A stretch of 34,432 bases of DNA, from the NCBI GenBank assembly GCA_024639085.1, contig JAHEJB010000015.1:1-34432 (forward strand). Direction: 5' to 3'. Within the stretch, counting starts at the first letter, position 1. Each line of letters starts with the position of its first letter. Positions 1 to 19,707 of the stretch are shown here, in pieces. The translations under genes and the position numbers were made by a program. Under the pieces are notes generated by a model that did no database searches, was not told the origin of the DNA, and saw only the letters and a program-made list of their open reading frames with translations. Origin of the DNA: Rubricoccaceae bacterium. Its GTDB lineage: Bacteria; Bacteroidota; Rhodothermia; Rhodothermales; Rubricoccaceae.

Positions 1-1140
1 GCTGCAATCACGTTGCCACTGGGGATTACAACCTCCAAGGAATACGCTGAACTTGAGTGGCCTATCGACATAGCCATTGCTGTCGTCTGGGTGATTTTTG
101 CGGTCAATTTCTTCGGCACACTAGCTCGACGCCGCGAGAAGCACATGTACGTGGCGTTGTGGTTCTACATCGCCACCATCGTCACCGTTGCGGTGCTGCA
201 CATTGGCAACTCGCTCGCGTTCCCCATCTCGCTAACGAAGAGCTACCCCATCTACAAAGGCGTTCAGGATGCGCTCGTGCAGTGGTGGTATGGACACAAC
301 GCCGTCGCCTTCTTCCTTACGACGCCCTTCCTGGGCTTGATGTACTACTTCTTGCCAAAGGCCGCGGAACGCCCGGTTTTCAGCTATCGGCTCAGTATTG
401 TTCACTTCTGGAGCCTCGTGTTCCTCTACATCTGGGCGGGGCCACACCACCTTCAGTACACGGCGGTGCCCGAGTGGGCAACTACACTGGGGATGGTGTT
501 CAGCGTGATGCTTTGGATGCCGAGCTGGGGTGGCATGATCAATGGTCTGTTTACGCTGCGTGGCGCGTGGCACAAGCTTCGTGATAGCGTGGTTCTAAAG
601 ATGTACGTGATAGGCATTACTTTTTATGGAATGAGCACGTTCGAGGGTCCGATGCTCTCGATAAAGAGCGTGAACGCTCTTAGTCACTACACGGACTGGA
701 CGATCGGTCACGTTCACGCCGGTGCACTGGGCTGGAACGGCTTCATGACGTTTGGAATGATCTACTGGTTGGTACCCCGCCTCTGGAAACGGGAACTGTG
801 GAGCAAAAAGCTTGCAACCGCCCATTTCTGGACCGGCACAATCGGCATGCTCCTCTACGTAATGGCGATGTATACATCCGGGATCACGCAGGGGCTGATG
901 TGGCGCGCATTCGATGATGCTGGACGCCTTCTGTACCCCGACTTCATGGAGACCGTTGTGCAGATCAAACCGATGTACTGGGTTCGCCTGATTGGTGGCA
1001 CCATGTACCTCACAGGAACGATCATGCTCATGGTGAATGTCTGGAAGACGATCCGCAACGCACCCAAAGACCTGTCCGACCCGGCCGTGGCCGTACCGCG
1101 GCAATCCGCCACACCTGCGGCCGAACTTGCAACCTCCTGA
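1..1140 (+). CDS. ccoN: cbb3-type cytochrome c oxidase subunit I (CcoN), 5' end outside window
   Basis: Catalytic subunit of the cbb3 terminal oxidase, which reduces O2 at a haem b3/CuB centre in the cytoplasmic membrane. The frame is open from base 1, so the gene starts upstream; the TTG at 13 is only an internal codon. About 379 residues are visible against roughly 470-480 for the family, so only the N-terminal helices are missing. Visible ligands are the CuB histidine in a WYGHN motif (bases 295-297), the paired CuB histidines in GPHHLQY (445-450), and the haem b3 and haem b histidines in [13 protein letters not shown] (709-711 and 715-717). The tyrosine at 625-627 in [11 protein letters not shown] matches the residue cross-linked to a CuB histidine in cbb3 enzymes. 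Many transmembrane helices are evident. ccoO follows 12 bases downstream, so this is an operon. Confidence 0.96.
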
Positions 1141-1152
1141 TCGTTCCGAGCT

Positions 1153-1881
1153 ATGTTCAATAGACTTATTAAGACCCACGGACGCCATCGGTTAGTGGAA
1201 GGTTGGCCGCTCGTGTTCACGATTCTCGTCGTGGTCTCCATTCTCGTGGGAACGGTAGTAGAGTTTGCTCCGATCTTCCTTGTACAAGGGCAGGTTGAGC
1301 CTACGCCCGGCGTAGAGCCGTGGACACCTCTGGAACTCGCTGGCCGTGATCTCTACATTCGTGAGGGTTGCAACAACTGCCACAGTCAGATGGTGCGTCC
1401 TTTCCGGCAGGAACTGGAGCGCTACGGACCGTATTCGCGCGCAGGGGAAACCGTCTACGAAACGCCATTCCTCTGGGGGTCAAAACGAACGGGGCCAGAC
1501 CTCGCCCGCGTGGGCGGGAAGTATCCGCACCTTTGGCACGTACGTCACATGGAGGATCCGCGATCCACGAGTCCAAATTCAATCATGCCCCCGTATGACT
1601 GGATGCTTGCGAATGAACTCGATCTGAGCAATCTGCCCGACAAGCTCAACGCGCTCCGGGGCCTCGGAATTCCTTACACAGATGCGCAGATCGCCAACGC
1701 CGAGGAAGACGCGCGGGCGCAGGCGGCTGAAATCGCAGCCGACGTTTCCCAACAGGGCGGCCCCGAGCAGCTTCAAAGCCGTGAAATCATAGCGATGGTG
1801 GCCTATCTGCAGAGCCTCACCGTACCTGAAGGCGTCGCGGCAGAGGTGGCCGCCACGGAAGCTGGAGGAGACACGCCATGA
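1153..1881 (+). CDS. ccoO: cbb3-type cytochrome c oxidase subunit II (CcoO)
   Basis: Membrane-anchored mono-haem cytochrome c subunit that carries electrons to CcoN. The 242-residue protein has one N-terminal transmembrane helix (about 19-38) followed by a periplasmic domain. The haem c motif is C73-N-N-C76-H77 in the family context GCNNCHSQMVRPF. The probable axial methionine lies in SIMPPYDWM. Length and motif order are normal for CcoO. The region around residues 180-210 carries an Ala/Glu-rich insertion, and the C-terminus is Ala/Glu-rich. The gene follows ccoN by 12 bases, and its stop overlaps the ccoQ start as ATGA. CcoO is separate rather than fused to CcoN, unlike many Bacteroidota cbb3 oxidases. 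Confidence 0.96.
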   Translation: MFNRLIKTHGRHRLVEGWPLVFTILVVVSILVGTVVEFAPIFLVQGQVEPTPGVEPWTPLELAGRDLYIREGCNNCHSQMVRPFRQELERYGPYSRAGETVYETPFLWGSKRTGPDLARVGGKYPHLWHVRHMEDPRSTSPNSIMPPYDWMLANELDLSNLPDKLNALRGLGIPYTDAQIANAEEDARAQAAEIAADVSQQGGPEQLQSREIIAMVAYLQSLTVPEGVAAEVAATEAGGDTP

Positions 1882-2069
1882 TGAAAGAAGTCATCCGCGC
1901 CTTGCAAACGGGCGCACTCGCGGAAGTCGCCTTGGTCGCCTTTTTTGCTGCGTTCTTGCTTGTTGTGATTTACACGTTCACGCTGTCCAAGAAGCGTCGC
2001 GACTACGACAAGAACCTCCCGCTTGATGATGCAGCGCCCATTAACCCAACGAACGGAACTGCGGCATGA
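1878..2069 (+). CDS. ccoQ: cbb3-type oxidase small subunit CcoQ
   Basis: A 63-residue protein with one transmembrane helix (about 15-36) followed by a basic/acidic tail containing SKKRRDYDKN, the usual CcoQ/FixQ layout. CcoQ stabilises the oxidase complex and is not catalytic. The start ATG overlaps the ccoO stop (ATGA), and a GGAGGA-like purine run at 1863-1870 is a good ribosome site. Its own stop overlaps the ccoP start in the same way. Identity rests mostly on position and topology, since CcoQ is poorly conserved. Confidence 0.9.
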   Translation: MMKEVIRALQTGALAEVALVAFFAAFLLVVIYTFTLSKKRRDYDKNLPLDDAAPINPTNGTAA

Positions 2070-2677
2070 GTACCCAAACACCAACAGGTCCAAAGCCTGC
2101 GCCAGAGAATCAGGGTCCTGCCATTCAGGGTCACAAGTACGATGGCATCCGCGAGTACGACAACCCTATGCCCGGTTGGTGGGTATGGTTGTTCATCGCG
2201 TGCATAGTTTTCTCGCCGATTTACATTCTGGCGGTTCATCAGTTCGACTTCATCAATACGTACGAGGAAGATCTGGCTCAGTCCCAGGCCGATCTGAACG
2301 AGATCCGCGAGGTCTACGCCGCATCCGCTCCTTCCTTTCAAACGGATGCGCGTTCTCTCCAGGACTATGCTGCGGACCCGCTCAATGCCGCTGCGGGTGC
2401 CGAGACGTATGCAACGATTTGCGCAGCCTGTCACGGAGACGTGGGACAGGGGCTCATCGGCCCAAACTTGACGGATGAGTTCTGGATTAACGGTGGATCG
2501 GAAGAGGACATATATCTAAACATTGCGGAAGGTGTGCCCGCCAACGGAATGCCTGCGTGGAATACGTCGCTCTCAGAAGTGGAGATGGCGTCGGCAATGG
2601 CCTTTGTCGTTTCGCTGAGCGGAACGAATCCTCCGGGAGCTAAGGAGCCTCAGGGCGAGCCTTACACAGGTCGCTAG
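2066..2677 (+). CDS. ccoP: cbb3-type oxidase subunit III (CcoP), single-haem form
   Basis: Membrane-anchored cytochrome c subunit that accepts electrons from soluble carriers. The N-terminus carries the CcoP signature YDGIREYDNPMPGWW (about residues 25-39) followed by one transmembrane helix (about 39-57). There is one cytochrome c domain with C119-A-A-C122-H123 and a likely axial methionine in GMPAW (M162). Classical CcoP has two CxxCH motifs and about 300 residues. This protein has 203 residues and one motif, so it is a mono-haem version. The reading frame is intact and no second CxxCH is seen in neighbouring frames. Start overlaps ccoQ (ATGA); ccoG follows after 3 bases. Confidence 0.94.
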   Translation: MSTQTPTGPKPAPENQGPAIQGHKYDGIREYDNPMPGWWVWLFIACIVFSPIYILAVHQFDFINTYEEDLAQSQADLNEIREVYAASAPSFQTDARSLQDYAADPLNAAAGAETYATICAACHGDVGQGLIGPNLTDEFWINGGSEEDIYLNIAEGVPANGMPAWNTSLSEVEMASAMAFVVSLSGTNPPGAKEPQGEPYTGR

Positions 2678-2680
2678 GCG

Positions 2681-4099
2681 ATGGCCTCGCAATTTGTGCC
2701 GGCCTCCGAGGTCAACGTCCTTGAATCGCCAGAAGATGTTTTGACGACGCTCGGGGCGGACGGCAAGCGGAAGTGGATTTACCCTACGCCCAGTCGTGGC
2801 AATTATGAAAAACGCCGTCGAATTCTGGGCTGGGCGTTGATAGCTCTATTTGTGGCGCTGCCAATTGTTCACATCAATGGGCGGCCCGCGGTTCTGTTGG
2901 ATGTCGCGTCGCGGGAGTTCACGTTCTTCGGATTCACGTTCTTCCCGACAGACACGTTCCTATTGATGATTTTCGGCATCGCACTGCTCACGGGCATCGT
3001 GCTGCTGACCGCATTGTGGGGCCGAGTCTGGTGTGGGTGGGCCTGTCCGCAGACGGTCTACCTGGAATTTGTCTACCGGCCGATTGAGAGGGTGATCGAG
3101 GGCAAAGAGCACGTCCGAAAGCGCCGTGATGCTGGACCGTGGAATTTGGACAAGATCTGGCGGAAAGCGCTCAAAATGAGCATCTATGTTGTGATTTCGG
3201 TTGCTTTGGCTCACGTCTTCGTTTCGTACTTCACGAGCTGGGGTCGTTTGATTCATTGGATGACAGGCCCGCCGACCGAGCACTGGGGCGTCTTTGTTCT
3301 GATGGCGGGCACGGCAGGACTCGTGCTCTTCAACTTTGCGTTCTTCCGCGAGCAGATGTGTACGATCACGTGTCCGTACGCTCGTATGCAGTCCGTATTG
3401 ATGGACGAGGACTCGACCATCGTCTCGTACGATTTCAACAGGGGAGAGCCGCGTGGTCGAGGTAAGGAGCGAGGTGAACTTGGCGACTGTGTCGACTGCT
3501 TCGCTTGTGTCCGCACGTGCCCGACGGGTATCGACATCCGGGACGGGCTCCAGATGGAGTGCGTCGCCTGCACCCAGTGCATTGATGCGTGCGATGACAT
3601 CATGGACAAAGTGGGCAAGCCGCGCGGGCTTATTCGCTACACGTCCGAGAACGAGTTGGAAGGCATTCCATCTCGGAAAGCGAGACCGCGAACCATCGTG
3701 TACGTAGGTCTTCTACTTGCGCTGTCTACAATCTTTACGATCGCGATCGCTGGACGGCAGGCCTACGATGTGAACGTGGGTCGCGCAACAGGCGCACCGT
3801 TTACAGAACTCCCTGATGGCACCATAGCCAACCGTCTGCGCTTTCGCGTACGCAATCAAACGCCTGAGGCTACGTCGTTCTCTATCTCTGTCGTTGAACC
3901 GACGTCGGCGGAGCTACGCATCGTAGGCACGCAACCTGTGGAATTAGGATCTGACCAGATGAAGCGACTGGAATCGTGGGTCGTCGTTCCGAAAACAGCC
4001 TTTGGCGGCGCATCGCAAGTGACGACCACATTCATCTTGTCTTTTTCGGACGGTGTTGAGCAGAAGGTTTCGTTCACGCTACTTGGGCCGAGTCGGTAG
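2681..4099 (+). CDS. ccoG: cbb3 oxidase assembly ferredoxin-like protein CcoG (FixG/RdxA)
   Basis: Polytopic iron-sulfur membrane protein implicated in maturation of cbb3 oxidase; in other bacteria CcoG is a Cu(II) reductase feeding the copper pathway. The 472-residue protein has five or so transmembrane helices, a C118-G-W-A-C122-P motif after the second helix, a CTITCPYARMQ motif (C227, C231), and two 4Fe-4S clusters of CxxCxxCxxxC type (C270/273/276/280 and C294/297/300/304). A last helix near 340-360 precedes a C-terminal Ig-like domain (about 370-472), as in the FixG family. It closes the structural operon, 3 bases after ccoP. A 145-base gap follows with no convincing terminator. Confidence 0.95.
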   Translation: MASQFVPASEVNVLESPEDVLTTLGADGKRKWIYPTPSRGNYEKRRRILGWALIALFVALPIVHINGRPAVLLDVASREFTFFGFTFFPTDTFLLMIFGIALLTGIVLLTALWGRVWCGWACPQTVYLEFVYRPIERVIEGKEHVRKRRDAGPWNLDKIWRKALKMSIYVVISVALAHVFVSYFTSWGRLIHWMTGPPTEHWGVFVLMAGTAGLVLFNFAFFREQMCTITCPYARMQSVLMDEDSTIVSYDFNRGEPRGRGKERGELGDCVDCFACVRTCPTGIDIRDGLQMECVACTQCIDACDDIMDKVGKPRGLIRYTSENELEGIPSRKARPRTIVYVGLLLALSTIFTIAIAGRQAYDVNVGRATGAPFTELPDGTIANRLRFRVRNQTPEATSFSISVVEPTSAELRIVGTQPVELGSDQMKRLESWVVVPKTAFGGASQVTTTFILSFSDGVEQKVSFTLLGPSR

Positions 4100-4244
4100 A
4101 TGTAGGGCACTACCCCACTTGTTCGTTCACCTTCGCCCTTCTAAGGAATCGAGAGCTACACATTTTCTTTTGGCTGTCAGCTTCCAATAGCCTCCTTTTA
4201 ATAATGTTCATGCTTCAGTCTCCGCTCACAATTCAGCCATCATA

Positions 4245-5153
4245 ATGACCAATCCAGATTCAAAGGTTGTAGTCTGCGCGCTTGATTTCTCAGATTGCTC
4301 GGAAGCTGCGCTCATCCAAGCCGTAGACTATGCGGAGAGGTTGCATGGCAAGCTGCATCTCATTCACTCCGATCCAACGTTCCACTCAGAATTCGGACAT
4401 GTGGAGCAAGCCCAGGTGGTAACAATAGGACTTGAGGAGCAGACGCGTGCCTATGCCATCGAAGCGCTGGGTGGCGAGAATGTTTTTGATGTTGTCGGCC
4501 CTGAAATTGTAGTTCGCCGAGGTGTCTATGCTGGAGATGCCATCTTGCAGTACGCGGACGAAGTGAACGCAGACTACATCATTCTGGGTACGCACGGGAG
4601 GAGAGGCGTTCGTCGCTTCATTGTCGGCAGCGTGGCCGAATACGTTGTTCGCGGTGCCAATTGCCCGGTTCTTACTGTTCCGAAGGTTGCGGCTCGCTCA
4701 CATCCCGGCCCATCTGCTCCTATTCTCGTACCTATTGATTACTCTGAGCACTCTCGAATGGCTCTGCGTGAAGCAAAGGAAATCAGCAAAGGGTTCTCTG
4801 CCCCAGTTGAATTGGTTCATGTTTTAGAGGATTTCGGCATCGTCCCTCACTTCTATCTCGCGGGAGGGATAGTCCCCGTCAATGATTTGCCGACGCTGCG
4901 CACCTACGCTGACAGTCACCTGCGAGAGCTTGATGCCGAGGTGGGCGGAGAGGGCGCGGCTGGCTATCGGGTGCGTTCAGGGAGCGCCCATCGGGAAATC
5001 CCGAAATATGCCGAAGAGATTGGTGCCGGTCTCATCGTGATGGCAACGCACGGTCTCTCAGGCGTCCAGCATGCGCTGATGGGAAGTGTGACCGAACGAA
5101 CGCTCCGCTATGCAAAATGCCCACTGCTCTCCGTGGCTGTTAGGGACGCATGA
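4245..5153 (+). CDS. tandem-domain universal stress protein (UspA family)
   Basis: Two Usp domains in 302 residues: about 1-145 and 155-300. Each ends with the nucleotide-binding signature G-2x-G-9x-G-S: GTHGRRGVRRF..GS starting at G115, and ATHGLSGVQHALMGS starting at A267. Both halves should therefore bind ATP or a related nucleotide. Usp proteins are cytoplasmic stress or energy-status sensors; the ligand here cannot be read from sequence. The stop overlaps the start of the ATP-grasp gene (ATGA), implying translational coupling and probably a common job. The 145 bases upstream probably hold the promoter of this operon. No Shine-Dalgarno sequence is evident. Confidence 0.93.
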   Translation: MTNPDSKVVVCALDFSDCSEAALIQAVDYAERLHGKLHLIHSDPTFHSEFGHVEQAQVVTIGLEEQTRAYAIEALGGENVFDVVGPEIVVRRGVYAGDAILQYADEVNADYIILGTHGRRGVRRFIVGSVAEYVVRGANCPVLTVPKVAARSHPGPSAPILVPIDYSEHSRMALREAKEISKGFSAPVELVHVLEDFGIVPHFYLAGGIVPVNDLPTLRTYADSHLRELDAEVGGEGAAGYRVRSGSAHREIPKYAEEIGAGLIVMATHGLSGVQHALMGSVTERTLRYAKCPLLSVAVRDA

Positions 5154-6727
5154 CAGAGGTCTTTTCGATACCAACCGCCGACCACGTGTTGTGGCCTGAA
5201 GCGGGTTCGCCAGAGGAGCTTGAGCGGTTTGCAGTGCTTCAACGGTCGTTGACGAGGCAGTTTGAGCAGATCTTCCCCGATCCTCTGCTTCCGAGGACCG
5301 TCGTCGTGCTTCCGAGCTTGTCACTTCACCCAGACGAGTTGCGGAAGGTCAGTGGGGTGCACCACTATGAAGAAAGGTTGCTTTTTGCGCTGATGCTTCT
5401 AAGAATGCCACGGACGAAGCTCATTTTAATAACTAGCCAACCCATTGCGCCGGGCATAATCGATTACTACCTGCACCTTCTTCCAGGTGTCCCGAGTGTA
5501 CATGCTCGGGAACGGCTGTTGCTCATATCCTGCCACGACTCATCTGAGATTCCGCTGACCAGGAAAGTGCTAGATCGGCCCCGTTTAGTCAACCGGATTC
5601 AGGACGCGATTGAAGACCTCGGGTCTGCTCACATTACATGCTTCAATGCGACAGAACTTGAGCGCACGCTAGCGGTTCGATTGGGGATTCCACTTTATGC
5701 CTGCGATCCGTTGTTGGAAGATCTGGGAACGAAAAGTGGAAGTAGAGAAGTATTTCGTGAGGCCGGAATAGTCATGCCGGATGGCTTTGAACGGCTCAGC
5801 GACATGGACGAAGTTGCGGCGGCTCTGGCTGAACTCAAGGCCCGAAACCCTGATCTCCATAGGGCCGTGGTGAAACTCGAAGAGGGCTTCAGCGGTGAAG
5901 GCAATGCGGTCTTCCGTTTTGATGGGATGCCTGCAATGACATCGTCGGCAGAAATAACGCGATGGGTTGCCGGCGAGCTTCCTTCGCGGCTCCGGTTTGA
6001 AGCAAAGACGGAGACGTGGGATCACTATTCGTCCACCTTTGCGGAAATGGGCGGGATCGTAGAAGTATTTGTCGAGGGCGCGATGAAGAAATCGCCCTCA
6101 GCTCAGTGCCGTGTCAATCCTGCAGGTGTGCCGCAGGTCATTTCTACGCACGACCAGGTTCTTGGCGGACCATCTGGCCAGGTCTTCATGGGTTGCACAT
6201 TTCCTGCAGACGCCGTCTATCGGAAAGACGTTCAGCGGGCGGGGATGAAGGTGGCGGAAGTGCTAGCGGAACGGGGAGTTCTCGGTAGGTTCGGGGTGGA
6301 CTTTGTCTCGGTCCGCGAGGGTTCGCGGTGGCATCATAACGCGATTGAGATCAATCTGCGCAAGGGTGGAACTACACATCCTTACCTCATGCTCGACTTT
6401 TTGACGGACGGCGGCTTCAGCCAGGAAACGGGCGAGTACCTCAGTTCGTCTGGTCTACCGCGCTACTATTACGCCTCGGACAACGTGGTGAGCGACAAAT
6501 ACAAAGGCCTTACTCCTCGTGATCTCATTGATATCGCCGTGGACCACAAGCTGCACTTTCACGGCGCGACACAAGAAGGCGTCGTCTTTCATCTCATTGG
6601 AGCGCTTTCCCAATTCGGAAAAGTTGGCGTTCTTTGTATCGGGGATTCGCCGGGTCGAGCACACGCACTCTACGACGAAACGATCCGGGTGCTTGACTTA
6701 GAAACCGGCGAGAGCCATACCGTATGA
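5150..6727 (+). CDS. PGM1-like ATP-grasp ligase (pre-ATP-grasp plus ATP-grasp)
   Basis: The 525-residue protein resembles the ATP-grasp family that includes the pheganomycin peptide ligase PGM1, often labelled 'carboxylate-amine ligase'. An N-terminal pre-ATP-grasp-like Rossmann region (about 45-195) contains TVVVLPSLSL and THPELR-type sequence. The ATP-grasp core (about 210-410) shows a nucleotide lysine and glycine-rich loop in VVKLEEGFSGEGN, and an Mg-binding E400-I-N402 followed by LRKGGTTHP. A C-terminal domain (about 420-525) follows, as in PGM1 relatives. Such enzymes activate a carboxylate as acyl-phosphate and join it to an amine; the substrates here are unknown. It overlaps both the Usp gene before it and the CHAD gene after it by 4 bases, so it sits inside a three-gene coupled unit. 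Confidence 0.8.
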   Translation: MTEVFSIPTADHVLWPEAGSPEELERFAVLQRSLTRQFEQIFPDPLLPRTVVVLPSLSLHPDELRKVSGVHHYEERLLFALMLLRMPRTKLILITSQPIAPGIIDYYLHLLPGVPSVHARERLLLISCHDSSEIPLTRKVLDRPRLVNRIQDAIEDLGSAHITCFNATELERTLAVRLGIPLYACDPLLEDLGTKSGSREVFREAGIVMPDGFERLSDMDEVAAALAELKARNPDLHRAVVKLEEGFSGEGNAVFRFDGMPAMTSSAEITRWVAGELPSRLRFEAKTETWDHYSSTFAEMGGIVEVFVEGAMKKSPSAQCRVNPAGVPQVISTHDQVLGGPSGQVFMGCTFPADAVYRKDVQRAGMKVAEVLAERGVLGRFGVDFVSVREGSRWHHNAIEINLRKGGTTHPYLMLDFLTDGGFSQETGEYLSSSGLPRYYYASDNVVSDKYKGLTPRDLIDIAVDHKLHFHGATQEGVVFHLIGALSQFGKVGVLCIGDSPGRAHALYDETIRVLDLETGESHTV

Positions 6728-7683
6728 GTACAGACGCCTACAAACTCCGACTTGACCGTCCGCTCGACCGTGAGGTTGCGCGCTTGGTTCGCAGTCAGGT
6801 CAGTCGCGCGCGGCGTGCGCTCAAAACGGCCGACGACACGGGCGTTCATACTGCCCGGAAGGCACTCAAGCGCGCCCGCGCCGTGCTTCGCCTGATACGA
6901 GGTGGCCTGCCGCGTGAACGATATCGTTCATTCGACCAAGACCTGAAGCTTATTGGAAGGCGCCTTGGTGGTGTTCGGGATATTGCTGTTGCCGTCTCAC
7001 TAACGGAGATTCTGACCATTGAGGGCAAGATCAAACAAACGATTGCCAAGCCTTTGTCCGAGTACCTCAGCGAGCAGCGCACCGCTGTATGGTCAAGGTT
7101 GCTGGTGGATGACGGAATCGAAGACATTCGCAATGAGCTTGATGGCCTTCGTTTGACCCAAGAGGAGTTATCGGGAATGGACGCGCTCGCGCTGCACGGT
7201 GGGCTCGCTTGGACTTACTCACGAGGCAGAGAGTGTCTTGCTCATGCCGTTGAGTTCCCCAGCGCCGATTCACTTCACTCATGGCGCCGGCACGCCAAAC
7301 ACTATGGCTATCAAATCCGATTGCTGACGCCAGCCTGGCCGTTGGTGCTACGGTCGGAGGCGCGGGCAATTGACACGCTCACTGAGGCGCTTGGCAACGA
7401 TCATGATCTGTCTGAATTGGTGCGGCTGGCAAAACTGTCGGACCTTGACAATAGCGCACTCAAGTCACTACAAAGAGTCGTACGAAAGCGACGGAAGGAC
7501 TTGGTAGCCTCTGTCTGGCCACTTGGCGCACGCATTTATGCAGAAGATGCCTGGTCCGTTGCTAGTCGGATGACCGTGTATCTGGCGGCGGCATTCGCCG
7601 AGGAAAGTGGTGCGCCCATTAATCTGCTAAACTCAATGGCTTTTCCAGTTCGGCCCAGTCATCCTTTAATCACTTCGCCATAA
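6724..7683 (+). CDS. CHAD domain protein (polyphosphate-binding fold)
   Basis: All-helical, strongly basic CHAD protein of 319 residues. The two internal repeats begin with conserved His and basic helices: H42-T-A-R-K-A-L-K-R-A-R (residues 42-52) and H185-S-W-R-R-H190-A-K-H193. Also typical are GGVRDIAVA (82-90) and GNDHDL (224-229). CHAD domains have been shown to bind inorganic polyphosphate and locate to polyP granules. The genes that follow, a phosphate symporter and two PPK2 enzymes, fit that role. It is a stand-alone CHAD without a fused CYTH triphosphatase domain. The start overlaps the ATP-grasp stop (ATGA); a 76-base gap separates it from the symporter. Confidence 0.92.
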   Translation: MSTDAYKLRLDRPLDREVARLVRSQVSRARRALKTADDTGVHTARKALKRARAVLRLIRGGLPRERYRSFDQDLKLIGRRLGGVRDIAVAVSLTEILTIEGKIKQTIAKPLSEYLSEQRTAVWSRLLVDDGIEDIRNELDGLRLTQEELSGMDALALHGGLAWTYSRGRECLAHAVEFPSADSLHSWRRHAKHYGYQIRLLTPAWPLVLRSEARAIDTLTEALGNDHDLSELVRLAKLSDLDNSALKSLQRVVRKRRKDLVASVWPLGARIYAEDAWSVASRMTVYLAAAFAEESGAPINLLNSMAFPVRPSHPLITSP

Positions 7684-7759
7684 TCTGAGGCTTGCTACAG
7701 GTCCCGGAGATGTATGTCTTCTGGCCAGCAGCCAAAACTCGCCCACAATCCCGCACCGT

Positions 7760-9505
7760 ATGGAAACCCAGGAGATACTTGAAGTTTGGCCAATTATAAT
7801 TGGCCTTGCAGGCGGACTTGCGCTTTTCCTTTTTGGAATGGAGCAGATGACCGACTCGCTGAAACAGATCGCGGGCAGTCGCATGAAATCGATGCTGGCT
7901 CGCCTGACGACAAACCGCGTTTCGGCGACGTTTGCAGGCGCCTTCGTGACGGCGATCATTCAGTCATCGTCCGTCACAACGGTATTGGTTGTCGGCTTCA
8001 TTTCTGCAGGACTGATGACACTGAGCCAGTCGATAGGGATCATTATCGGCGCGAACGTGGGCACGACGATAACTGCTCAGATCATTGCCTTCAAAGTGAC
8101 AAAGTATGCGCTGATCCTCGTCGCCATCGGTTTCACGATGCTGTTTACGTCCAAACGAGAGCGTATTCGGCACTACGGAACCATGCTCATGGGCCTGGGA
8201 CTAATCTTTTTTGGGATGGAGCTCATGAGCAACGCCACGAGCCCCCTACGGAGCTACGAGCCCTTTATCCTCTTCATGCAGCGAATGGCGAGCCCCTGGT
8301 TAGGGATACTTGCCGGGGCCGCTTTTACTGCCGTTGTTCAATCGTCTTCTGCAACGACGGGAGTGGTGATTGTCCTTGCAACACAGGGTTTCATCTCCCT
8401 TGAAGCAGGCATCGCTCTCGTTCTCGGAGCCAACATAGGAACGTGCGTCACCGCACTTCTCGCAGCAATCGGCAAGCCCCGCGAGGCCGTCCGCGCCGCA
8501 GTTGTACACGTGTTGTTCAATGTAGTTGGTGTAGTAGTCTGGATCGGGTTCATCGGCTATCTAGCATCGTTCGTTGAGATGTTTTCGCCGGCATCTTCCG
8601 GCCTTGAAGGCGTTGATCGTTTGGCCGCAGATACACCCAGACAAATTGCCAATGCGCACACGTTATTTAATGTGGCCAACACAGTAATCTTTCTCCCGTT
8701 TACGGGACTGTTGGCCAAACTGGTTATTCGACTGGTTCCAGATCGACCGGAGTCGGCAGATGCCGTCATCCAGCCTCGATACCTCGACGGTATTCTCTTG
8801 AGTACACCGGCGCTGGCTCTCGATCGCGTTAGGATGGAATTGCGTAGGATGGGCGAACGAGCGGCGCGCATGCTAAGTGAAGCTCTGCCTGTTGCCCTTG
8901 ATGGCGAGGTGGAGGATTTAAAGGCGCTTCAATCACGGGACGAAGAGATTGATGTGCTCCATGCTGCGGTCATTACCTACCTCGGGCAACTGGCAAAAGA
9001 AAACTTGGACCAGTCACAAACCGAGCTACACTATGATTACCTGGAGGCTGCGAACAACATCGAGAGTATTGCAGACCTGATTGAGACAAACGTCGTTACT
9101 GCAGGCATGGAACGCATCGGAGTCGGTTTTAACGTCAGCGCTGCGACGCACGAAAAGCTTACTGCGCTGCACGACAGAGTTCGCGAGGCTGTTAGGCTCA
9201 CTTTTCAGGCGCTCGACGCGCATAATTCAGCAATGGCTGGCGAGGTGATTGGTGCCAAAGGAGAGATCAACAGGTTAGCCGACGAAGCGGAGGCTCACCT
9301 TGCTCGCCGTCTTGTTGCTGACGAACCAGATAGACTCAGTCTCTATCGGTTTGAATCAGAATTGATCGAGTACCTCAAACGCGTCTATTATTTCGCCAAG
9401 AGGATTGCCAAGGCCGTCGCGGCGCACGAAATGGCGTCTGCGGGCAGCCGCGTGGACGAGAATCCCGAACAAGAGCTTGTATCTGCTCATAAATCGGAAT
9501 TGTGA
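7760..9505 (+). CDS. Na+/phosphate symporter with PhoU-like C-terminal domain
   Basis: NptA/PNaS-type Na+-coupled phosphate importer of the cytoplasmic membrane, 581 residues. The membrane part (about 10-330) holds the inverted duplication of the family: QSSS68-71 followed by VTTVLVVGFISAG and GANVGTT, and QSSS194-197 with ATTGVVIV and GANIGT. The C-terminal part (about 345-560) is helical and charged, resembling the PhoU-like domain often fused to these carriers, which suggests regulation of Pi uptake. Start chosen at ATG 7760, which puts a short N-terminal stretch before the first helix; no clear ribosome site is visible. The stop overlaps the PPK2 start (TGATG), so import and polyphosphate metabolism are translationally linked. 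Confidence 0.95.
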   Translation: METQEILEVWPIIIGLAGGLALFLFGMEQMTDSLKQIAGSRMKSMLARLTTNRVSATFAGAFVTAIIQSSSVTTVLVVGFISAGLMTLSQSIGIIIGANVGTTITAQIIAFKVTKYALILVAIGFTMLFTSKRERIRHYGTMLMGLGLIFFGMELMSNATSPLRSYEPFILFMQRMASPWLGILAGAAFTAVVQSSSATTGVVIVLATQGFISLEAGIALVLGANIGTCVTALLAAIGKPREAVRAAVVHVLFNVVGVVVWIGFIGYLASFVEMFSPASSGLEGVDRLAADTPRQIANAHTLFNVANTVIFLPFTGLLAKLVIRLVPDRPESADAVIQPRYLDGILLSTPALALDRVRMELRRMGERAARMLSEALPVALDGEVEDLKALQSRDEEIDVLHAAVITYLGQLAKENLDQSQTELHYDYLEAANNIESIADLIETNVVTAGMERIGVGFNVSAATHEKLTALHDRVREAVRLTFQALDAHNSAMAGEVIGAKGEINRLADEAEAHLARRLVADEPDRLSLYRFESELIEYLKRVYYFAKRIAKAVAAHEMASAGSRVDENPEQELVSAHKSEL

Positions 9506-10218
9506 TGTTGTCTGAAGCTCAAGCTGCCCTGGCGGATCTGGATGCTTCCGACTTTCCGGGGAAGGGCGAATCGCGCGACAGGCTCTCTGAACTACAGCGT
9601 GCCTGCGCCGATGCCGGCCTTCCTGTCATCGTCGTGTTTGAGGGATGGGATGCAGCCGGGAAAGGTTCTCTTATTCACACGTTGACGGCTAGGCTCGATC
9701 CCCGAGGTTTTGAAGTTCATCCGATTCAAGCGCCTCGTCCGTTTGAACAAAGCCGGCCGTGGCTCTGGAGGTACTGGCTGAAAATCCCCCCCGCGGGGAA
9801 GTGGGCCTTTTTTGACCGAAGCTGGTATGGAAGGATCCTCGTGCAGCGGGTAGAGGGCATGGTTTCCAAAGCGGACCGCAAACGTGCCCACGACGAAATC
9901 CTCCAGTTTGAGCGAACGCTGGTCGACAACGGCTATGTCATCATAAAGCTGTTCCTCCACATCGAGAAAGAGGAGCAAAAGAAGCGTCTCGACGCACTGT
10001 CAACTGATCCGGCAACCTCTTGGCAAGTCACAGATGAGGACTGGGCGAATCACCGGCGCTACAAAACTTGGTACCGGCTCTACGAGAAAACGTTAAAGAA
10101 GACCGACACAGAACGTGCTCCCTGGCATGTTATTCCGACGGCCTCCGCCGCGTTGGCCACGTTGCGCGTCTATGAGGTTCTCACGAGCGAAATCCAGAAA
10201 GCGCTAGAGAAATCATGA
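9505..10218 (+). CDS. polyphosphate kinase 2 family protein (like N-terminal half of PAP)
   Basis: PPK2 enzymes transfer phosphate between polyphosphate and nucleotides. This 237-residue protein has Walker A GWDAAGKGS (47-55), an LDPRG turn after it, a Walker B-like FDRSWYGR (103-110) with the following VQRVEG, and a helical lid rich in Lys/Arg. It is a single-domain protein with no signal peptide. ATG 9505 overlaps the symporter stop (TGATG); a GTG one codon upstream (9502) is possible. The gene downstream, overlapping by 4 bases, is a second PPK2. Side by side the pair resembles the duplicated class II enzyme polyphosphate:AMP phosphotransferase split between its halves. Substrate (AMP, ADP or GDP) cannot be told from sequence alone. 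Confidence 0.93.
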   Translation: MLSEAQAALADLDASDFPGKGESRDRLSELQRACADAGLPVIVVFEGWDAAGKGSLIHTLTARLDPRGFEVHPIQAPRPFEQSRPWLWRYWLKIPPAGKWAFFDRSWYGRILVQRVEGMVSKADRKRAHDEILQFERTLVDNGYVIIKLFLHIEKEEQKKRLDALSTDPATSWQVTDEDWANHRRYKTWYRLYEKTLKKTDTERAPWHVIPTASAALATLRVYEVLTSEIQKALEKS

Positions 10219-10943
10219 AGCACCCTCGCCTTTCCGATGTCGATCTATCCGTGGAGCTTGGCCGCGTTGCGTATCAACGTAAACGGTCCAAGTATAAGAA
10301 GGCTCTTCAGGCTCTGGGTCGACCTGTATTTGAGAATAAGCGGCCGGTTGTCATCGTTTTTGAAGGCTGGGATGCGGCCGGAAAAGGCGGCGCAATTCGT
10401 AACGCCATGGCTCCGCTGGATCCGCGTGGTTACCGCGTTCATCCCATCGGTCCGCCGGAGGGAGAGGACGCGCGAAGGCACTATCTCTACCGATTCTGGC
10501 GGAGGCTACCCGAAGCTGGCCAGGTGGCGGTGTTCGATCGAAGCTGGTATGGTAGGGTGCTCGTCGAGCGCGTTGAAGGCTTCGCGACGGAAGAAGAGTG
10601 GCGGCGCGCCTATCAGGAGATCCGGGAGTTCGAGCAACAAATGGTCGCTTTCGGAACGATCCTGTTCAAGTTTTGGATGCATCTTTCGCCGGAAGAACAG
10701 CTCCGGCGATTTAAGGCGCGGGAGCAGGATCCCCGGAAACAATGGAAGCTCACCGACGAGGACTGGCGCAATCGGGAGAAGTGGGATGCCTATCTGGAAG
10801 CATTAACGGAGATGATTGACGAGACGCATACGCCCTATGCACCGTGGACTATCATTGAGGGCGATAGCAAGCAGTGGGCGCGCATAAAGGTGTTGCAAAC
10901 GCTGGTAACAGGACTTCAGGCCACGTTTGAAAAGGATTCATAG
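10215..10943 (+). CDS. polyphosphate kinase 2 / polyphosphate:AMP phosphotransferase-like (C-terminal half type)
   Basis: Second PPK2 of the pair, 242 residues. Walker A is GWDAAGKGG (51-59), Walker B-like is FDRSWYGR (107-114), followed by VLVERVEGFA and FEQQM. Blocks such as DEDWRNREKWDAY and YAPWTIIEGDSKQWARIKVL closely match what I know of the C-terminal half of polyphosphate:AMP phosphotransferases. N-terminal residues 10-35 (a YQRKRSKYKKALQAL helix) match the linker that joins the two halves in fused enzymes. It starts on the stop of the first PPK2 (ATGA) and is the last gene of the phosphate block. A 7-bp hairpin follows 15 bases after the stop. Confidence 0.93.
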   Translation: MKHPRLSDVDLSVELGRVAYQRKRSKYKKALQALGRPVFENKRPVVIVFEGWDAAGKGGAIRNAMAPLDPRGYRVHPIGPPEGEDARRHYLYRFWRRLPEAGQVAVFDRSWYGRVLVERVEGFATEEEWRRAYQEIREFEQQMVAFGTILFKFWMHLSPEEQLRRFKAREQDPRKQWKLTDEDWRNREKWDAYLEALTEMIDETHTPYAPWTIIEGDSKQWARIKVLQTLVTGLQATFEKDS

Positions 10944-11049: not shown

Positions 11050-11244
11050 TTGCATACAGCTCCAACATTGAACGACTCGCCTCTCTCAAAACAACCTAGG
11101 ATTCCATCGCACATTGCATGGCCCATGGTGGTTGTGCTGTTGCTGTTGATGAGTTTGGCGACTGTAACAATCACGGTCATTGCCGCGAACTCCGATGGCG
11201 GCGTTGACGTGGTAGAGGATTCTCCGTACGCACCCCGCCGATGA
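11050..11244 (+). CDS. short FixH/CcoH-like single-span membrane protein
   Basis: Up to 64 residues with one transmembrane helix (about 24-46, following an AWP motif) and a short tail GGVDVVEDSPYAPRR. CcoH/FixH proteins have this N-terminal helix and a 'VVxDxYY'-like continuation, and are encoded just before ccoI, exactly as here. But they run to about 150 residues with a periplasmic FixH domain, which is absent. Either this is a minimal FixH or an unrelated small membrane protein in its place. The start is unclear: only TTG codons at 11050 and 11068 precede the helix, and the first in-frame ATG (about 11125) falls at its beginning. The stop overlaps the ccoI start (ATGA), which supports real translation. 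Confidence 0.62.
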   Translation: MHTAPTLNDSPLSKQPRIPSHIAWPMVVVLLLLMSLATVTITVIAANSDGGVDVVEDSPYAPRR

Positions 11245-13772
11245 GTACGGTTGCGACCGATAGAACCCCACTGAAAAGCCGGGCTGCTAAGGCAACTGAT
11301 GTGAGCACAACGATTGCCGATTCGCACTGCGCACATTGCGGAATGCGGCTTGGATCTACTCCTGTCGTAAAGGACGACCGTGGATTCTGCTGCAACAGTT
11401 GCGCCACGGCGTTTGGCGCACTATCCGATTCGGGGCTGGATGAAGAGTTTTACAGCCTTCAGGTTCTTCCAGAGAAGCCAGCGAACACTGCGTCCGATGC
11501 ATCAAAAAATCTTCAACTCAAAGAACTGGATTCACCGCAGTTCATTGAGGAGCACACTCGGCCTGACAACGCCGGTCGCTCTGTCGATCTGTTTGTGGAT
11601 GGCATGCATTGCGCCGCGTGCGTGTGGTTGATTGAACGCCTCCCTTTCGAGATGGAAGGCATTGCGGTTGCTCGTGTCGATCTGCCTCGCGCTCGTCTGA
11701 GTCTCACATTCGACCCTGCTCAGGTCAAGCTGTCGAAGGTGGCAGAATGGCTGGCGAAGTTCGGCTACACAGTCCGTCCTATGCGAGGCGAGGGTGGTCG
11801 GCCTACGGATGCCGAGCGCAAATTGCTTCTTCGGATGGGTGTGGCGTGGGCGTTGGCGGGCAATGTGATGCTCGTCACCTTCGCGCTGTATAGCGGACTT
11901 CAGGCAGAGGGCAGTGGACTCGCAACCGCGGCCCGCTGGATTAGCCTGACGCTATCTATTCCGGCCGTTTTTTACGGTGGGGCACCATTTTTCCGCCGGG
12001 CTTGGGCATCGATGCGCTCTGCCATCAAGGCGCACGATTTCAGGCGGCTCCACATGGATATGCCTATCGCCCTCGGCATACTGGTCGGATTCCTGCACAG
12101 CATGTGGGCCACGTTATCTGGAAACGGAGAGGTCTGGTTCGACTCCATCACGGTTCTCATCGCCGCGCTCCTGACGGCTCGCTGGCTTCAGCTTCGCAGT
12201 AGGAGACTTGCCGGCGAGGCCTCTGATCGCCTTTTGGCGCTTGTGCCATCAATGGTGCGTCGGGTTAGAGCGGACGGCCAGATCGAGGTCGTGCGTGTCG
12301 ATGATATCGATGCGGGCGATCTGGTAGAAGTCCCAGCCGGTGAAGTTGTGCCCGTAGATGGCGTTATTGCCGAGGGGGAAAGTCGATTGAATAACGCCGT
12401 AATCACGGGCGAGAGTCGCCCTGAAGCCGTCGTTTCCGGCGGAAGGGTTGTTGCAGGAGCAACCAACCTCTCATCTCCACTGCGGGTACGCGTAGAGGCT
12501 GCGGGAGAAGCCACACGCGTAGGCAAACTGCTTGCGTGGGTTCGGAATGCAGAAGAACACAAAGCCCCAGTCGTACTTCTCGCGGACAGGATCGGTGGAT
12601 ACTTCGTGCTCGGCGTTCTGGCGCTGGCTGCGCTCACCGCAGCGCTCTGGATTTCCATTGATCCTACTGTAGCCGCCCAGCATGTGGTGGCGCTGCTCGT
12701 GATTACGTGCCCCTGCGCATTGGGGATGGCTACGCCGTTGGCTATGTCCGTCGCTGCAGGCCGTGCGGCTCGACACGGGCTGTTCATCAAATCCGACGAG
12801 GCGACTCAGCAACTCACAACCATCGACACGGTCATCCTGGACAAGACGGGAACCCTTACAGAAGGCCAGATGACGCTTGTCGAATGGACAGGGTCTACTG
12901 ACGCTCTTGAACTCCTTGCTGCATTGGAATCGCAATCGAATCATCCGATTGCCGAAGCCCTTGTTCGCTCTGTAGGTCCAACAGAAAATATTGGAGTTGT
13001 GGGAATTGAGGCCGTTGCTGGAGCTGGCATTCGTGGCTTCGTGGACGGTCGCGAGGTCGTTGTTGGGCGACCGGACTGGGTTGCGGTAGTGACTGGCGTA
13101 TCGACAGATTCTGTACAGCCGGACATCGAACGAGTGGCCTTGCTTGGCTACACCCCCGTTGTGGCCGCCGTAGACAGGCAGATTGTTGGCGTTGCGGCTA
13201 TTGGAGATCGGTTGCGAGACGATGCGGCGCAGCTAGTCCGAGCTTTGGAACTGTCGGGCAAGGAAGTCCACATTTTGTCCGGCGATCATCCTGAAGCTGT
13301 CGCCGTCGTAGCAGAGCGTCTCGGCTTAGTTGGAGAGAGGGCGCGGGGAGGAGTTAGTCCCGAAGAGAAGCGTGCGGCGATTGAGCACCTTCAAGAGGAA
13401 GGAAGTTCCGTTCTCATGGTTGGCGACGGTGTAAATGACGCCGTGGCACTGCAAGCAGCTGATGTAGGTGTGGCTGTGGGAGGTGGAAGCACGGCAAGTC
13501 TTGTCGCCGCCGATGTGTTCATGACACGTCCCGGTGTTGAACCGGTCTCCGAGCTACTTCATGGCTCGGAAGCGGTCATGCGTACGATCCGAGTAACGTT
13601 GGGCGTCTCATTGCTCTACAACCTGATCGGAGCATCAGCCGCGATGGCTGGACTTGTTACGCCTCTCGTTGCGGCTGTTGCGATGCCCGTCTCTTCCCTT
13701 CTTGTTGTGGCGATGGCCATTCTCCAGCCGTCATTTCGCGACCAACAGCCCCAATCGTTAAAACACCAATGA
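11241..13772 (+). CDS. ccoI: copper-transporting P1B-type ATPase for cbb3 assembly (CcoI/FixI)
   Basis: Membrane P-type ATPase that exports or delivers copper for CuB assembly, 843 residues. In order: an N-terminal cysteine zone C30-A-H-C33 and C50-C51-N-S-C54 (the metal-binding domain typical of CcoI), an HMA domain with G121-M-H-C124-A-A-C127, transmembrane helices, TGES (389-392), the ion motif C490-P-C492, the phosphorylation site D534-KTGT, H568-P569 of the P1B class, and GDGVND (728-733). All catalytic residues are present. It overlaps the FixH-like gene before and ccoS after (both ATGA). The FixH-CcoI-CcoS order assigns it to cbb3 assembly rather than to general copper resistance. Confidence 0.95.
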   Translation: MSTVATDRTPLKSRAAKATDVSTTIADSHCAHCGMRLGSTPVVKDDRGFCCNSCATAFGALSDSGLDEEFYSLQVLPEKPANTASDASKNLQLKELDSPQFIEEHTRPDNAGRSVDLFVDGMHCAACVWLIERLPFEMEGIAVARVDLPRARLSLTFDPAQVKLSKVAEWLAKFGYTVRPMRGEGGRPTDAERKLLLRMGVAWALAGNVMLVTFALYSGLQAEGSGLATAARWISLTLSIPAVFYGGAPFFRRAWASMRSAIKAHDFRRLHMDMPIALGILVGFLHSMWATLSGNGEVWFDSITVLIAALLTARWLQLRSRRLAGEASDRLLALVPSMVRRVRADGQIEVVRVDDIDAGDLVEVPAGEVVPVDGVIAEGESRLNNAVITGESRPEAVVSGGRVVAGATNLSSPLRVRVEAAGEATRVGKLLAWVRNAEEHKAPVVLLADRIGGYFVLGVLALAALTAALWISIDPTVAAQHVVALLVITCPCALGMATPLAMSVAAGRAARHGLFIKSDEATQQLTTIDTVILDKTGTLTEGQMTLVEWTGSTDALELLAALESQSNHPIAEALVRSVGPTENIGVVGIEAVAGAGIRGFVDGREVVVGRPDWVAVVTGVSTDSVQPDIERVALLGYTPVVAAVDRQIVGVAAIGDRLRDDAAQLVRALELSGKEVHILSGDHPEAVAVVAERLGLVGERARGGVSPEEKRAAIEHLQEEGSSVLMVGDGVNDAVALQAADVGVAVGGGSTASLVAADVFMTRPGVEPVSELLHGSEAVMRTIRVTLGVSLLYNLIGASAAMAGLVTPLVAAVAMPVSSLLVVAMAILQPSFRDQQPQSLKHQ

Positions 13773-13930
13773 ACATTCTCTACGCGCTCGTTCCACTAGC
13801 CCTCCTGCTCGCAGGACTTGGCGTATTGGCCTTCCGCTGGGCCGTCCGCGACGGGCAGTTTGACGATGTGGAGACACCCGCCATTCGCATGCTTCTTGAC
13901 GACGAAACGGATCAATCTTCTACACCATGA
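13769..13930 (+). CDS. ccoS: cbb3-type oxidase assembly protein CcoS
   Basis: A 53-residue protein starting MNILYALVPLALLLAG, with one N-terminal transmembrane helix followed by the CcoS signature FRWAVRDGQFDD and a short acidic tail. CcoS is needed for cofactor insertion into CcoN in other bacteria. The start overlaps the ccoI stop and its own stop overlaps the next gene (both ATGA). The gene is short enough to be missed by a 60-residue cutoff. Motif and position together make the call secure. Confidence 0.93.
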   Translation: MNILYALVPLALLLAGLGVLAFRWAVRDGQFDDVETPAIRMLLDDETDQSSTP

Positions 13931-14484
13931 CTACTTCAGCATTATCTGCTCCAACATCATCTAAAGAGAGCACGCCACCTCATCCTACATTTCCCCTGAA
14001 CGGCGCAGTTGTGGATGGCGCCGCAACCACATTCGAGTGGCTAGGGGTCCCGGAAGCGACCGCCTACCACCTTCAAGTTGCCCCGGATAGACAGTTTGTG
14101 CGCGATGTTCTTGAGTTGCATCTGGGCGGCAGCACATCGGTTGCTTTACACAATACGCTGCCACCATTAGATCGTCCGTATTTCTGGCGCATTCGCGCGA
14201 CGAGCCCTGTTGGTGAAACGCGTTGGAGCCCCTACGGACGCTTTTTTTCAGGCAACGACGCGCAGGTGGATTCCTTCCGAGCGGAGAAGGAGGGGAGAGA
14301 ATTGGAGGAACGAAGGAAGGCTGCCAAAGACCGGGCAAGGAAAGAAGCGGAACTTGACCTAATTCCTTTCATTGAGCGAGATGACACGATCCCATCTGCC
14401 TCCATCTCCAGGATTTTGGGTCTCACGATGATCATCTCGTTTTTGCTCGTACTGGCATCGGTACTGCTGGCGACGGTTATCTGA
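13927..14484 (+). CDS. tail-anchored membrane protein with FN3-like domain
   Basis: Not a protein I recognise. It has 185 residues: a Ser/Thr/Pro-rich start (1-20), an FN3-like beta domain (about 20-108) with the usual YHLQVAPD and YFWRIRATSPVGETRWSP features, a highly charged Glu/Lys/Arg helix (about 115-150), and a single C-terminal transmembrane helix (about 161-184). There is no signal peptide, so the FN3 domain is predicted to be cytoplasmic if the protein inserts as tail-anchored, which is an unusual place for FN3. The start overlaps the ccoS stop (ATGA), making it the last gene of the ccoI-ccoS operon and a possible accessory factor for cbb3 biogenesis or stability. Confidence 0.8.
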   Translation: MTTSALSAPTSSKESTPPHPTFPLNGAVVDGAATTFEWLGVPEATAYHLQVAPDRQFVRDVLELHLGGSTSVALHNTLPPLDRPYFWRIRATSPVGETRWSPYGRFFSGNDAQVDSFRAEKEGRELEERRKAAKDRARKEAELDLIPFIERDDTIPSASISRILGLTMIISFLLVLASVLLATVI

Positions 14485-14540: not shown

Positions 14541-14819
14541 ATGAGCACGCAAAAGCACTTTACAAGCGATCAGGCCCGTGAAATAGGCGAACAGTTAGGT
14601 ATTGACTGGGCTGCTTTCAGTGTCGAGCAATTCCGAATGGGCCTGGATGTCGAGCTTGAACATGGAAGCCACGATCCGGCAACCGACGTTACGGGCAACG
14701 ATCCTCTTCTGACCGGCAAGATCGCATTGGCGCACCTAAATGAGTTTCCAGACTATTACACTCGCCTCCTGAAAATGGAAGAGGATGCCGAGGCGTTTCA
14801 TGGAACGGCCAGCAACTAG
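14541..14819 (+). CDS. DUF5661 family small protein
   Basis: A 92-residue soluble protein that I place in the DUF5661 family from its pattern: an N-terminal FTSDQAREIGEQLGIDW segment, then FRMGLDVELEHGSHDP, and a C-terminal GKIALAHLNEFPDYYTRLLKMEED. Function is unknown for the family; the repeated His/Glu/Asp positions (ELEHG, LAHLNE, PDYY) could bind metal, but this is a guess. It starts 56 bases after the FN3 protein, so it may be the distal gene of that transcript. Its stop lies in the sequence ACTAGT, where the convergent regulator gene also ends, so the two genes overlap tail to tail by 4 bases. Confidence 0.85.
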   Translation: MSTQKHFTSDQAREIGEQLGIDWAAFSVEQFRMGLDVELEHGSHDPATDVTGNDPLLTGKIALAHLNEFPDYYTRLLKMEEDAEAFHGTASN

Positions 14820-16324
14820 TCTTGGATAAAATCATTGCGAATTGCTTCTAAGGCTTCATTCTGCTCTTCCAGATGCCTTGCGTCCTCGAGCACGGAAGGC
14901 TCGGCGGCCCTGATTTCACAGTCATGAAGTGGGCATCGCTCGCACGTCAGATTCACGTCTACACTTTGGATCGCTGGATCGACCCAGAATCTGACAGCAC
15001 GCTTGAATGTGCGATCCATCAAGAAGCCAAGCATGACCACAGTGTTCGTGCCTGGTTTAAGAGCCAGTGGCCTAGCGACAGCGATCACGAAAAACTCGGC
15101 GTCATCATTCAGAAAATGTGAGCGCTGTACAGTGACGACCGGCTCGTCGTCCTCGGCGCTGGATTTTCGCAGTTCCGCCAGTTCTCGCAAGGCTTCCATC
15201 CCAGGCCAGCGGCGACAGTAGTGTTCGTGTAATTGGATACCATGTGGAACTGGCACGCGGCTCATGTTGAGCACTTTCGTCAAATTATAGGAGTCTTCTC
15301 CCGTCTGATGATGGAAGCGCATGAAGAAGATCTCCTTCATCCCAAACGCTTTGGGAATACGTTGCGTAAGGCGGTAGAAAAACATCTCGGGCGTGGCGCG
15401 ATAGCGTTTTAGCGCGGCGCGGAAGGCTGCTTCGTTCCACGTATTCCAGCGAAAGAAAGCTGTCAGGTCCTCATCCAGCGCAACAGCGGGGATGAGGACC
15501 GCGCCAGCAAAATACGAGGCTTCAAAATTGGCAAGCACCTGCTCGAACGACTCGACCTTTACCCAGGAACCAGTCGTGGGACGACTTTCTGGCTTGAGTG
15601 TCAGGAAACCAAGTTCGCGAGCGTAGAGGAATGCTTGCTGCTCTTCGCGTAATGATCCATTCACGAGCATTTTCCTTTGCGATTCGCCCGTTACGATCGA
15701 GCGGAAGCCGTGCAATGTCTCATGTCTAGGCAGCGTTTCTGTATCGATCGTGTAGCCGTAATCGGTCTCAAGGATTTCGCGTAATTCTGTAGCAGTTGGA
15801 ATTTCACGCGGACCCCACTTCTGGACCCTTCGAAAATCAGAAGCAGCCTTCTCAAGCTCAGGAAAATGATTGCCGTGCATCTTCTGATGCGCCCTGAGTG
15901 CGGCAAAGAGAAAATGCTCGACACGCGCATCGTACGTGCGGCTGACTTCAATGAACGCCCGGATGAGGGCGGAAGCGCGACGTGGCACGCCGACCATTAG
16001 ACTGAGCACATCCTGTGGCTCCACGCCAAACAGTTCGAACGGAAAGGCCCGAAGGAATGGGGAGTAGATCGCTTCGCGTAATCCTTCCAGAGGCTCTTCT
16101 ACCTTTAGAGAAACGAGGTCATCATACGGGATGCCAAGTGCACTTGCGAGGTCAATGAGTTTGTCCGGTTTCGGATATTTCTTCCCCTTCTCTATTTCAG
16201 AGAGATAGGAGACGGAGATTTTCGCTCTGTCGGCTACTCTGCTGAGAGTGAAGCCACGCTCCTGCCGGAGCCGCTTCAGCTTGAGGCCCAAAACAAGGCG
16301 GAGTTGGTCAGCGGCGTCGGCCAC
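14816..16324 (-). CDS. XRE-family regulator of RamB/ScfR type (acetate/glyoxylate control)
   Basis: Cytoplasmic transcription regulator of 502 residues. It has an N-terminal XRE helix-turn-helix (about 12-70, with FTLSRVADRAKISVSYLSEIE), a middle DUF955/IrrE-like region, and a C-terminal short-chain-fatty-acyl regulator domain ending in a cysteine cluster C-E-R-C-P-L-H-D-C (about 460-470). This is the layout of RamB, the regulator of acetate metabolism in corynebacteria and mycobacteria. In the DUF955 region the zinc-protease motif HExxH is not present: the matching stretch reads AFLYARELGF, so it is probably a ligand-binding rather than a protease domain. It is transcribed divergently from the malate synthase/isocitrate lyase genes, its likely targets. 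Confidence 0.9.
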   Translation of the reverse strand: MADAADQLRLVLGLKLKRLRQERGFTLSRVADRAKISVSYLSEIEKGKKYPKPDKLIDLASALGIPYDDLVSLKVEEPLEGLREAIYSPFLRAFPFELFGVEPQDVLSLMVGVPRRASALIRAFIEVSRTYDARVEHFLFAALRAHQKMHGNHFPELEKAASDFRRVQKWGPREIPTATELREILETDYGYTIDTETLPRHETLHGFRSIVTGESQRKMLVNGSLREEQQAFLYARELGFLTLKPESRPTTGSWVKVESFEQVLANFEASYFAGAVLIPAVALDEDLTAFFRWNTWNEAAFRAALKRYRATPEMFFYRLTQRIPKAFGMKEIFFMRFHHQTGEDSYNLTKVLNMSRVPVPHGIQLHEHYCRRWPGMEALRELAELRKSSAEDDEPVVTVQRSHFLNDDAEFFVIAVARPLALKPGTNTVVMLGFLMDRTFKRAVRFWVDPAIQSVDVNLTCERCPLHDCEIRAAEPSVLEDARHLEEQNEALEAIRNDFIQD

Positions 16325-18317: not shown

Positions 18318-18376
18318 GTTGATTAGCCAACTAGACGCCATACTCAATTCAACACTCACACTCTCCTCCCAAGAAC

Positions 18377-19678: not shown

Positions 19679-19707
19679 TCAGGTTTTCGATCCTTTGATT
19701 TTGTACT

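Follow-up and report, generated by a model that had tools for sequence, protein, structure and literature searches.

What brings together a two-domain Usp, a predicted ATP-grasp ligase, and a CHAD protein, encoded by three genes that overlap one another by ATGA in a Rubricoccaceae bacterium? The window analyzed here is the whole of a 34,432-nt stretch of DNA (assembly GCA_024639085.1, contig JAHEJB010000015.1, forward strand 1-34,432). Open reading frames and Pfam matches confirm the trio as first described, all on the + strand: the Usp (4245..5153; Pfam, 185 bits in two stretches, and motif scan); a predicted carboxylate-amine ligase of the BesA/PGM1 type (5150..6727; Pfam, NCBIfam, alignments, and an AlphaFold model); and a stand-alone CHAD protein (6724..7683; Pfam, and alignments with CtCHAD). 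The overlaps lie at 5150-5153 and 6724-6727. The preliminary description took this tight coupling to indicate one complex or one process. However, 4-bp overlaps join about 15% (84/569) of the close same-strand neighbors in the loci fetched for comparison, so ATGA coupling is weak evidence for a complex. Nor is the trio conserved as a unit.

The actual unit in the window is six genes, Usp-ATPgrasp-CHAD-NaPi/PhoU-PPK2a-PPK2b. Starting 76 bp past the CHAD gene, on the same strand, is the gene for a Na/Pi symporter with a C-terminal PhoU domain (7760..9505, +; Pfam PF02690, 222 bits, and PF01895, 51 bits). Next come two polyphosphate kinase 2 genes, PPK2a (9502..10218, +) and PPK2b (10215..10943, +), with further 4-bp overlaps at 9502-9505 and 10215-10218. 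Upstream of the string are the cbb3 oxidase genes ccoN-ccoO-ccoP-ccoG (13..4099, +), assigned from sequence and open reading frames and found in the same order in about 20 relatives: ccoN, whose 5' end falls outside the window; ccoO (1153-1881, +); ccoP, with one CxxCH (2066-2677, +); and ccoG (2681-4099, +). Downstream, and forming the distal border of the cargo slot, is ccoI (11241..13772, +), identified by sequence as a P-type copper ATPase gene, with homologues at the same place. The preliminary description had missed the NaPi/PhoU and PPK2 genes as well as the flanking ccoN-O-P-G and ccoI. Beyond ccoI lies the gene for an uncharacterized protein (13927..14484, +), FN3-like and C-terminally anchored on a domain reading of its sequence; the protein has no match in Pfam or NCBIfam, and its homologues follow ccoI in many relatives. 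By comparison with relatives, the six-gene unit is made up of two modules: Usp plus ATP-grasp; and CHAD plus phosphate transporter and polyphosphate kinases.

Comparison with 113-114 genomes of the same order identifies the ccoG-ccoI gap as a site of changing cargo (stress, polyphosphate [polyP], and phosphate genes), with the trio straddling two kinds of cargo. In the window's genome (G000) the order is ccoG-Usp-ATPg-CHAD-NaPi-PPK2a-PPK2b-ccoI. A second genus of the same family (G322) has ATPg-CHAD-NaPi-PPK2a-PPK2b-ccoI, retaining the ATPg/CHAD ATGA overlap; here the cargo is preceded by an ABC-2 permease pair and, by sequence reading, an ABC ATPase. A member of another family (G319) has ccoG-FixH-NaPi-PPK2a-PPK2b-ccoI, with its ATP-grasp gene elsewhere. 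Shorter cargoes are ccoG-Usp-ATPg-Usp-ccoI (G317, family f53), ccoG-ATPg-ccoI (G324), and ccoG-Usp-ccoI (G328). The slot is empty in seven genomes (G231, G325, G326, G327, G179, G183, and G239), and in several other relatives it holds a single short ORF at the ccoH position.

Within this order, the ATP-grasp gene is present in 20/114 genomes, a CHAD domain in 20/113, and ccoG in 43/113. The full Usp-ATPgrasp-CHAD order occurs in the window's genome only, and the ATP-grasp gene adjoins CHAD in just two genomes, representing two genera of a single family; conservation of the trio across genera was thus not found. A single genome has the complete six-gene set and a second has five of these genes, so the evidence that the combination is under selection is weak. 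Of the co-occurrence that the preliminary description proposed to look for, the Usp-ATP-grasp pairing holds in several families of the order, whereas the ATPg-CHAD pairing and the full trio do not extend beyond these two genera and this one genome, respectively.

The Usp would bind ATP. Its first domain carries the G-2x-G-9x-G(S) motif (GTHGRRGVRRFIVGS at 115), matching the G-2x-G-9x-G(S/T) pattern of ATP-binding Usps, and its second domain is near-canonical, with A replacing the first G (A-2x-G-9x-G(S)). In a tree, the window Usp and the Usps lying between ccoG and ccoI in G317 and G328 cluster together (support 92/93). Usp also adjoins ATP-grasp outside the slot in four genomes (G219, G316, G307, and G314): G219 has the order DsbD_2-Usp-ATPg, and in G316 the ATP-grasp gene is followed by three Usps and then onward to ccoN. 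The Usp-ATP-grasp association spans several families of the order, partly near cbb3 genes.

The middle protein matches PF24923 (ATP-grasp_IQCH; 85 bits) and PF18105 (PGM1_C; 50 bits versus a cut-off of 22.5). The nearest NCBIfam model is the BesA equivalog NF042917, whose score of 155.7 bits lies below the 750-bit cut-off and so does not place the protein in that family. Across 25 sequences D384, E400, N402, and K405 are invariant, as is R404, and K242 is conserved. The protein therefore should be an active ligase, and with the core Mg/ATP residues (D, E, and N of FGVDF...EINLRK) together with PGM1_C it reads as a member of the BesA/PGM1 type. The preliminary assignment to the peptide ligases is borne out by the predicted structure: the AlphaFold model (mean pLDDT 86) has BesA as its best PDB match (8yi6; TM 0.77/0.87, 29% identity), followed by Streptomyces ATP-grasp peptide ligases and PGM1. 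With BesA, an L-propargylglycine-L-glutamate ligase, and PGM1, the pheganomycin peptide ligase (3wvq/3wvr), it shares the fold, the ATP-grasp core, the FGVDF and EINLRK motifs, and PGM1_C, with 29% identity to BesA over 474 columns. It differs in being longer, in forming its own tight clade in at least four phyla, and in lying outside any bes or pheganomycin cluster. BesA, according to its NCBI name, joins glutamate with an amino acid; by analogy, the product here is possibly a BesA-like amide, perhaps gamma-glutamyl. A gamma-glutamyl product is plausible because GGT adjoins the ATP-grasp gene in several relatives.

A tree of the ATP-grasp proteins unites the four slot copies in one clade (96/86; 100/99 with G319 added) and places the Usp-adjacent copies in a second group (94/91). 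The copy from G317 (f53) nests among those of family f1, so the genes probably moved between families. A genome-wide pattern scan yielded only nine loci, its peptide patterns being narrow. Outside the order, proteins 50-60% identical occur in Acidimicrobiia, Planctomycetota, Gemmatimonadota, and other Bacteroidota-phylum genomes, with CHAD not adjoining. Most homologues keep other company: GcvP-GSDH in Acidimicrobiia, different genes again in Planctomycetota, Gemmatimonadota, and the remainder of the phylum, and, within the order, GGT (g12, G365), M16 peptidases (g4), or DUF3179/A2M (f51). By the preliminary description's own test, this goes most of the way to refuting the trio as a system. 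Across the order the ATP-grasp gene tracks the oxidase, ccoG being present in 17/20 genomes that have it versus 26/93 that do not (by genus 13/16 versus 14/33, p 0.015), although kinship confounds these counts.

The CHAD protein, by contrast with the ligase, does have ties to polyP, and these are stronger than first described. Its domain scores 91.9 bits against the Pfam cut-off of 25.6. In alignment, H42, R45, K49 (R to K), and R85 correspond to H253, R256, R260, and R296, which contact polyP in CtCHAD (PMC6537752). With domain and basic contacts kept, and with polyP and phosphate genes as neighbors, it is a predicted CHAD of the polyP-binding type. Both PPK2 proteins carry Walker A and DRSWYGR intact, and PPK2b shares about 50% identity with fused polyP:AMP phosphotransferases in their catalytic C-half. 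A split fused two-domain PPK2 (PAP) was considered for the pair and rejected, since PPK2a has DRSWYGR and matches C-halves better than the degenerate N-halves. CHAD, NaPi, and PPK2 genes also associate where no ATP-grasp gene adjoins: NaPi-PPK2 in G219; NaPi then CHAD in G179; and PPK2 near CHAD in G305. Elsewhere, stand-alone CHAD genes of polyP clusters likewise adjoin polyP-metabolizing enzymes and phosphate genes (PMC6537752, PMC10892726). In the window, however, the partners are PPK2 and NaPi/PhoU rather than PPK1/PPX, and the cluster lies within cbb3 genes. PPK1 was found in the window's genome, so polyP can be made.

On balance we favor, with some confidence, a reading in which two modules, accreted in the ccoG-ccoI gap of the cbb3 cluster, overlap at the trio and form a low-oxygen expression unit that manages polyP, phosphate, and adenylate charge beside the high-affinity oxidase. 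As oxygen falls, the whole cluster would be expressed as one unit. Phosphate would enter, or be balanced, through NaPi/PhoU; PPK1, encoded elsewhere in the genome, would make polyP; CHAD would bind it; and the two intact PPK2s would recharge AMP/ADP from polyP, holding adenylate charge during oxygen-limited respiration. The Usp would be an ATP-binding stress partner in the same response. The ATP-grasp enzyme would be a separate ATP-dependent ligase making a small amide product, a passenger or a partner on the Usp side, and would share the expression unit but not the polyP chemistry. The polyP half of this proposal is firmer than the ligase half.

Precedent for such a unit comes from Rhodobacter capsulatus, in which FnrL directly controls ccoNOQP, uspA, and a PPK2 (PMC4634722). 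The FNR/FnrL-controlled set there (ccoNOQP, ccoGHIS, uspA, PPK2) includes the same kinds of gene, cbb3 oxidase plus Usp plus PPK2. That regulon is largely dispersed, whereas the window genes are strung within one gap, where FNR boxes were not found (PMC4634722 for the regulon). Matches to TTGAT-N4-ATCAA in the window number 17 against 13.5 expected, the level of chance, and no canonical site stands out before the Usp gene. Upstream of ccoN in relatives there was no consistent site, although ccoN starts were estimated, so that a site could be missed; the corresponding region of the window's own ccoN is off the contig. With no canonical FNR box, common oxygen control is something we infer. Scans for sigma-70 promoters and terminators gave chance-level results, and the gaps of 145 bp before the Usp gene and 297 bp before ccoI make separate promoters possible. 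Within the literature library searched, there were no papers joining Rhodothermales, cbb3, and polyP; BesA and ATP-grasp; or CHAD and ATP-grasp.

The cargo might instead be neutral, the ccoG-ccoI gap simply tolerating insertions and gathering unrelated genes. The variability and frequent absence of the cargo fit this view, as does the frequency of 4-bp overlaps. Nevertheless, it is the same few gene families, Usp, ATP-grasp, NaPi, and PPK2, that turn up repeatedly in f1 and f53; Usp and ATP-grasp are also linked beyond the slot (in the four genomes named above); and Usp and PPK2 are co-regulated with cbb3 in another bacterium (PMC4634722). We consider neutral accretion unlikely.

CcoG is a copper reductase and CcoI a copper ATPase. 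The slot between them invites the idea that the cargo buffers copper for cbb3 assembly, with polyP/CHAD storing the metal and the ligase's product being a small copper or thiol ligand. The E. coli CHAD protein YgiF affects copper tolerance, its His mutants being more sensitive (PMC10892726), and the ABC-2 permease pair ahead of the cargo in G322, together with GGT adjoining ATP-grasp in g12, as would fit a gamma-glutamyl product, point the same way. Against this, the ATP-grasp gene in other phyla has no cbb3 genes nearby, and in many relatives the cbb3 cluster carries no cargo, which is therefore not needed for cbb3 assembly; a copper role seems distinctly improbable. Slightly more doubtful still is a separate reading: the product of the ATP-grasp clade would be a conserved small compound, gamma-glutamyl or peptide, required at low oxygen or to deliver copper to cbb3, and in this lineage its synthesis would be tied to polyP-held phosphate and ATP recharge via CHAD-PPK2.

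The least credible explanation is a dedicated complex working at polyP granules, where CHAD would tether a ligase that assembles or alters a polymer or peptide and Usp would sense nucleotides: the ATGA coupling here and in G322, the polyP contacts kept in CHAD, and some ATPg-CHAD co-occurrence (9/20 versus 11/93 genomes; genus level p 0.06, with counts confounded by kinship) speak for it, but the slots of G317 and G324 keep ATP-grasp without CHAD, CHAD adjoins ATP-grasp at none of the loci examined beyond the window and G322, the ATP-grasps of other phyla and of other Bacteroidota likewise lack an adjoining CHAD, and no result shows polyP to be something the ligase acts on.

Together, these results replace a puzzling trio with a testable picture: one gap in the cbb3 clusters of this order, with a changing gene set. 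The ATP-grasp clade emerges as a highly conserved cross-phylum ligase (50-70% identity), whose product could be identified by enzymology. Moreover, the low-oxygen unit that we propose would directly connect a high-affinity oxidase with polyP-based ATP recharge; until now this connection has been seen as a common regulon in Rhodobacter.

Two separate PPK2 genes lie in tandem beside NaPi, the gene for a Na/Pi symporter with a PhoU domain, in the window (9502-10943) and at two loci in compared genomes (L190, 5729-7194; L099, 841-2330). Both members of the pair have intact catalytic motifs. Within the order, such a close pair was observed only in the three genomes that carry the NaPi-PPK2a-PPK2b module in the ccoG-ccoI gap. 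Elsewhere, HTH reading frames lie near CHAD: an 819-residue protein composed of at least five HTH_23-like repeats, encoded between a PPK2 gene and a CHAD gene (L227, 5847-8306), and a smaller one flanked by NaPi and CHAD (L223).

The ATP-grasp ligase has a stable setting unlike that in the window: the order GcvP-GSDH-ATP-grasp is kept in Acidimicrobiia-labelled genomes (L005, L006, L007, L008, L009, and L011; about 3300-9600). This setting may hint at the substrate. In genomes of g12 and g170, a gamma-glutamyltranspeptidase gene lies immediately 3' of the ligase gene (L022, 377-3912; L111, 8986-12390; L110), an arrangement compatible with a gamma-glutamyl product.

Window CcoP (2066-2677) is short (203 residues) and contains one CxxCH motif, whereas classical CcoP has two haem sites. 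Adjoining the cbb3 cluster is a predicted glyoxylate-bypass cluster (14816-20914), comprising an XRE-type regulator, malate synthase, isocitrate lyase, and an alanine-glyoxylate aminotransferase-like gene, all named by sequence reading alone. The uncharacterised protein at 13927-14484, read by eye as an FN3-like domain with a C-terminal membrane anchor, matched no Pfam or NCBIfam profile. Homologues follow ccoI in many relatives (G317, G319, G324, G231, G325-G328, G179, and G306), and the protein is a candidate new cbb3-associated protein.
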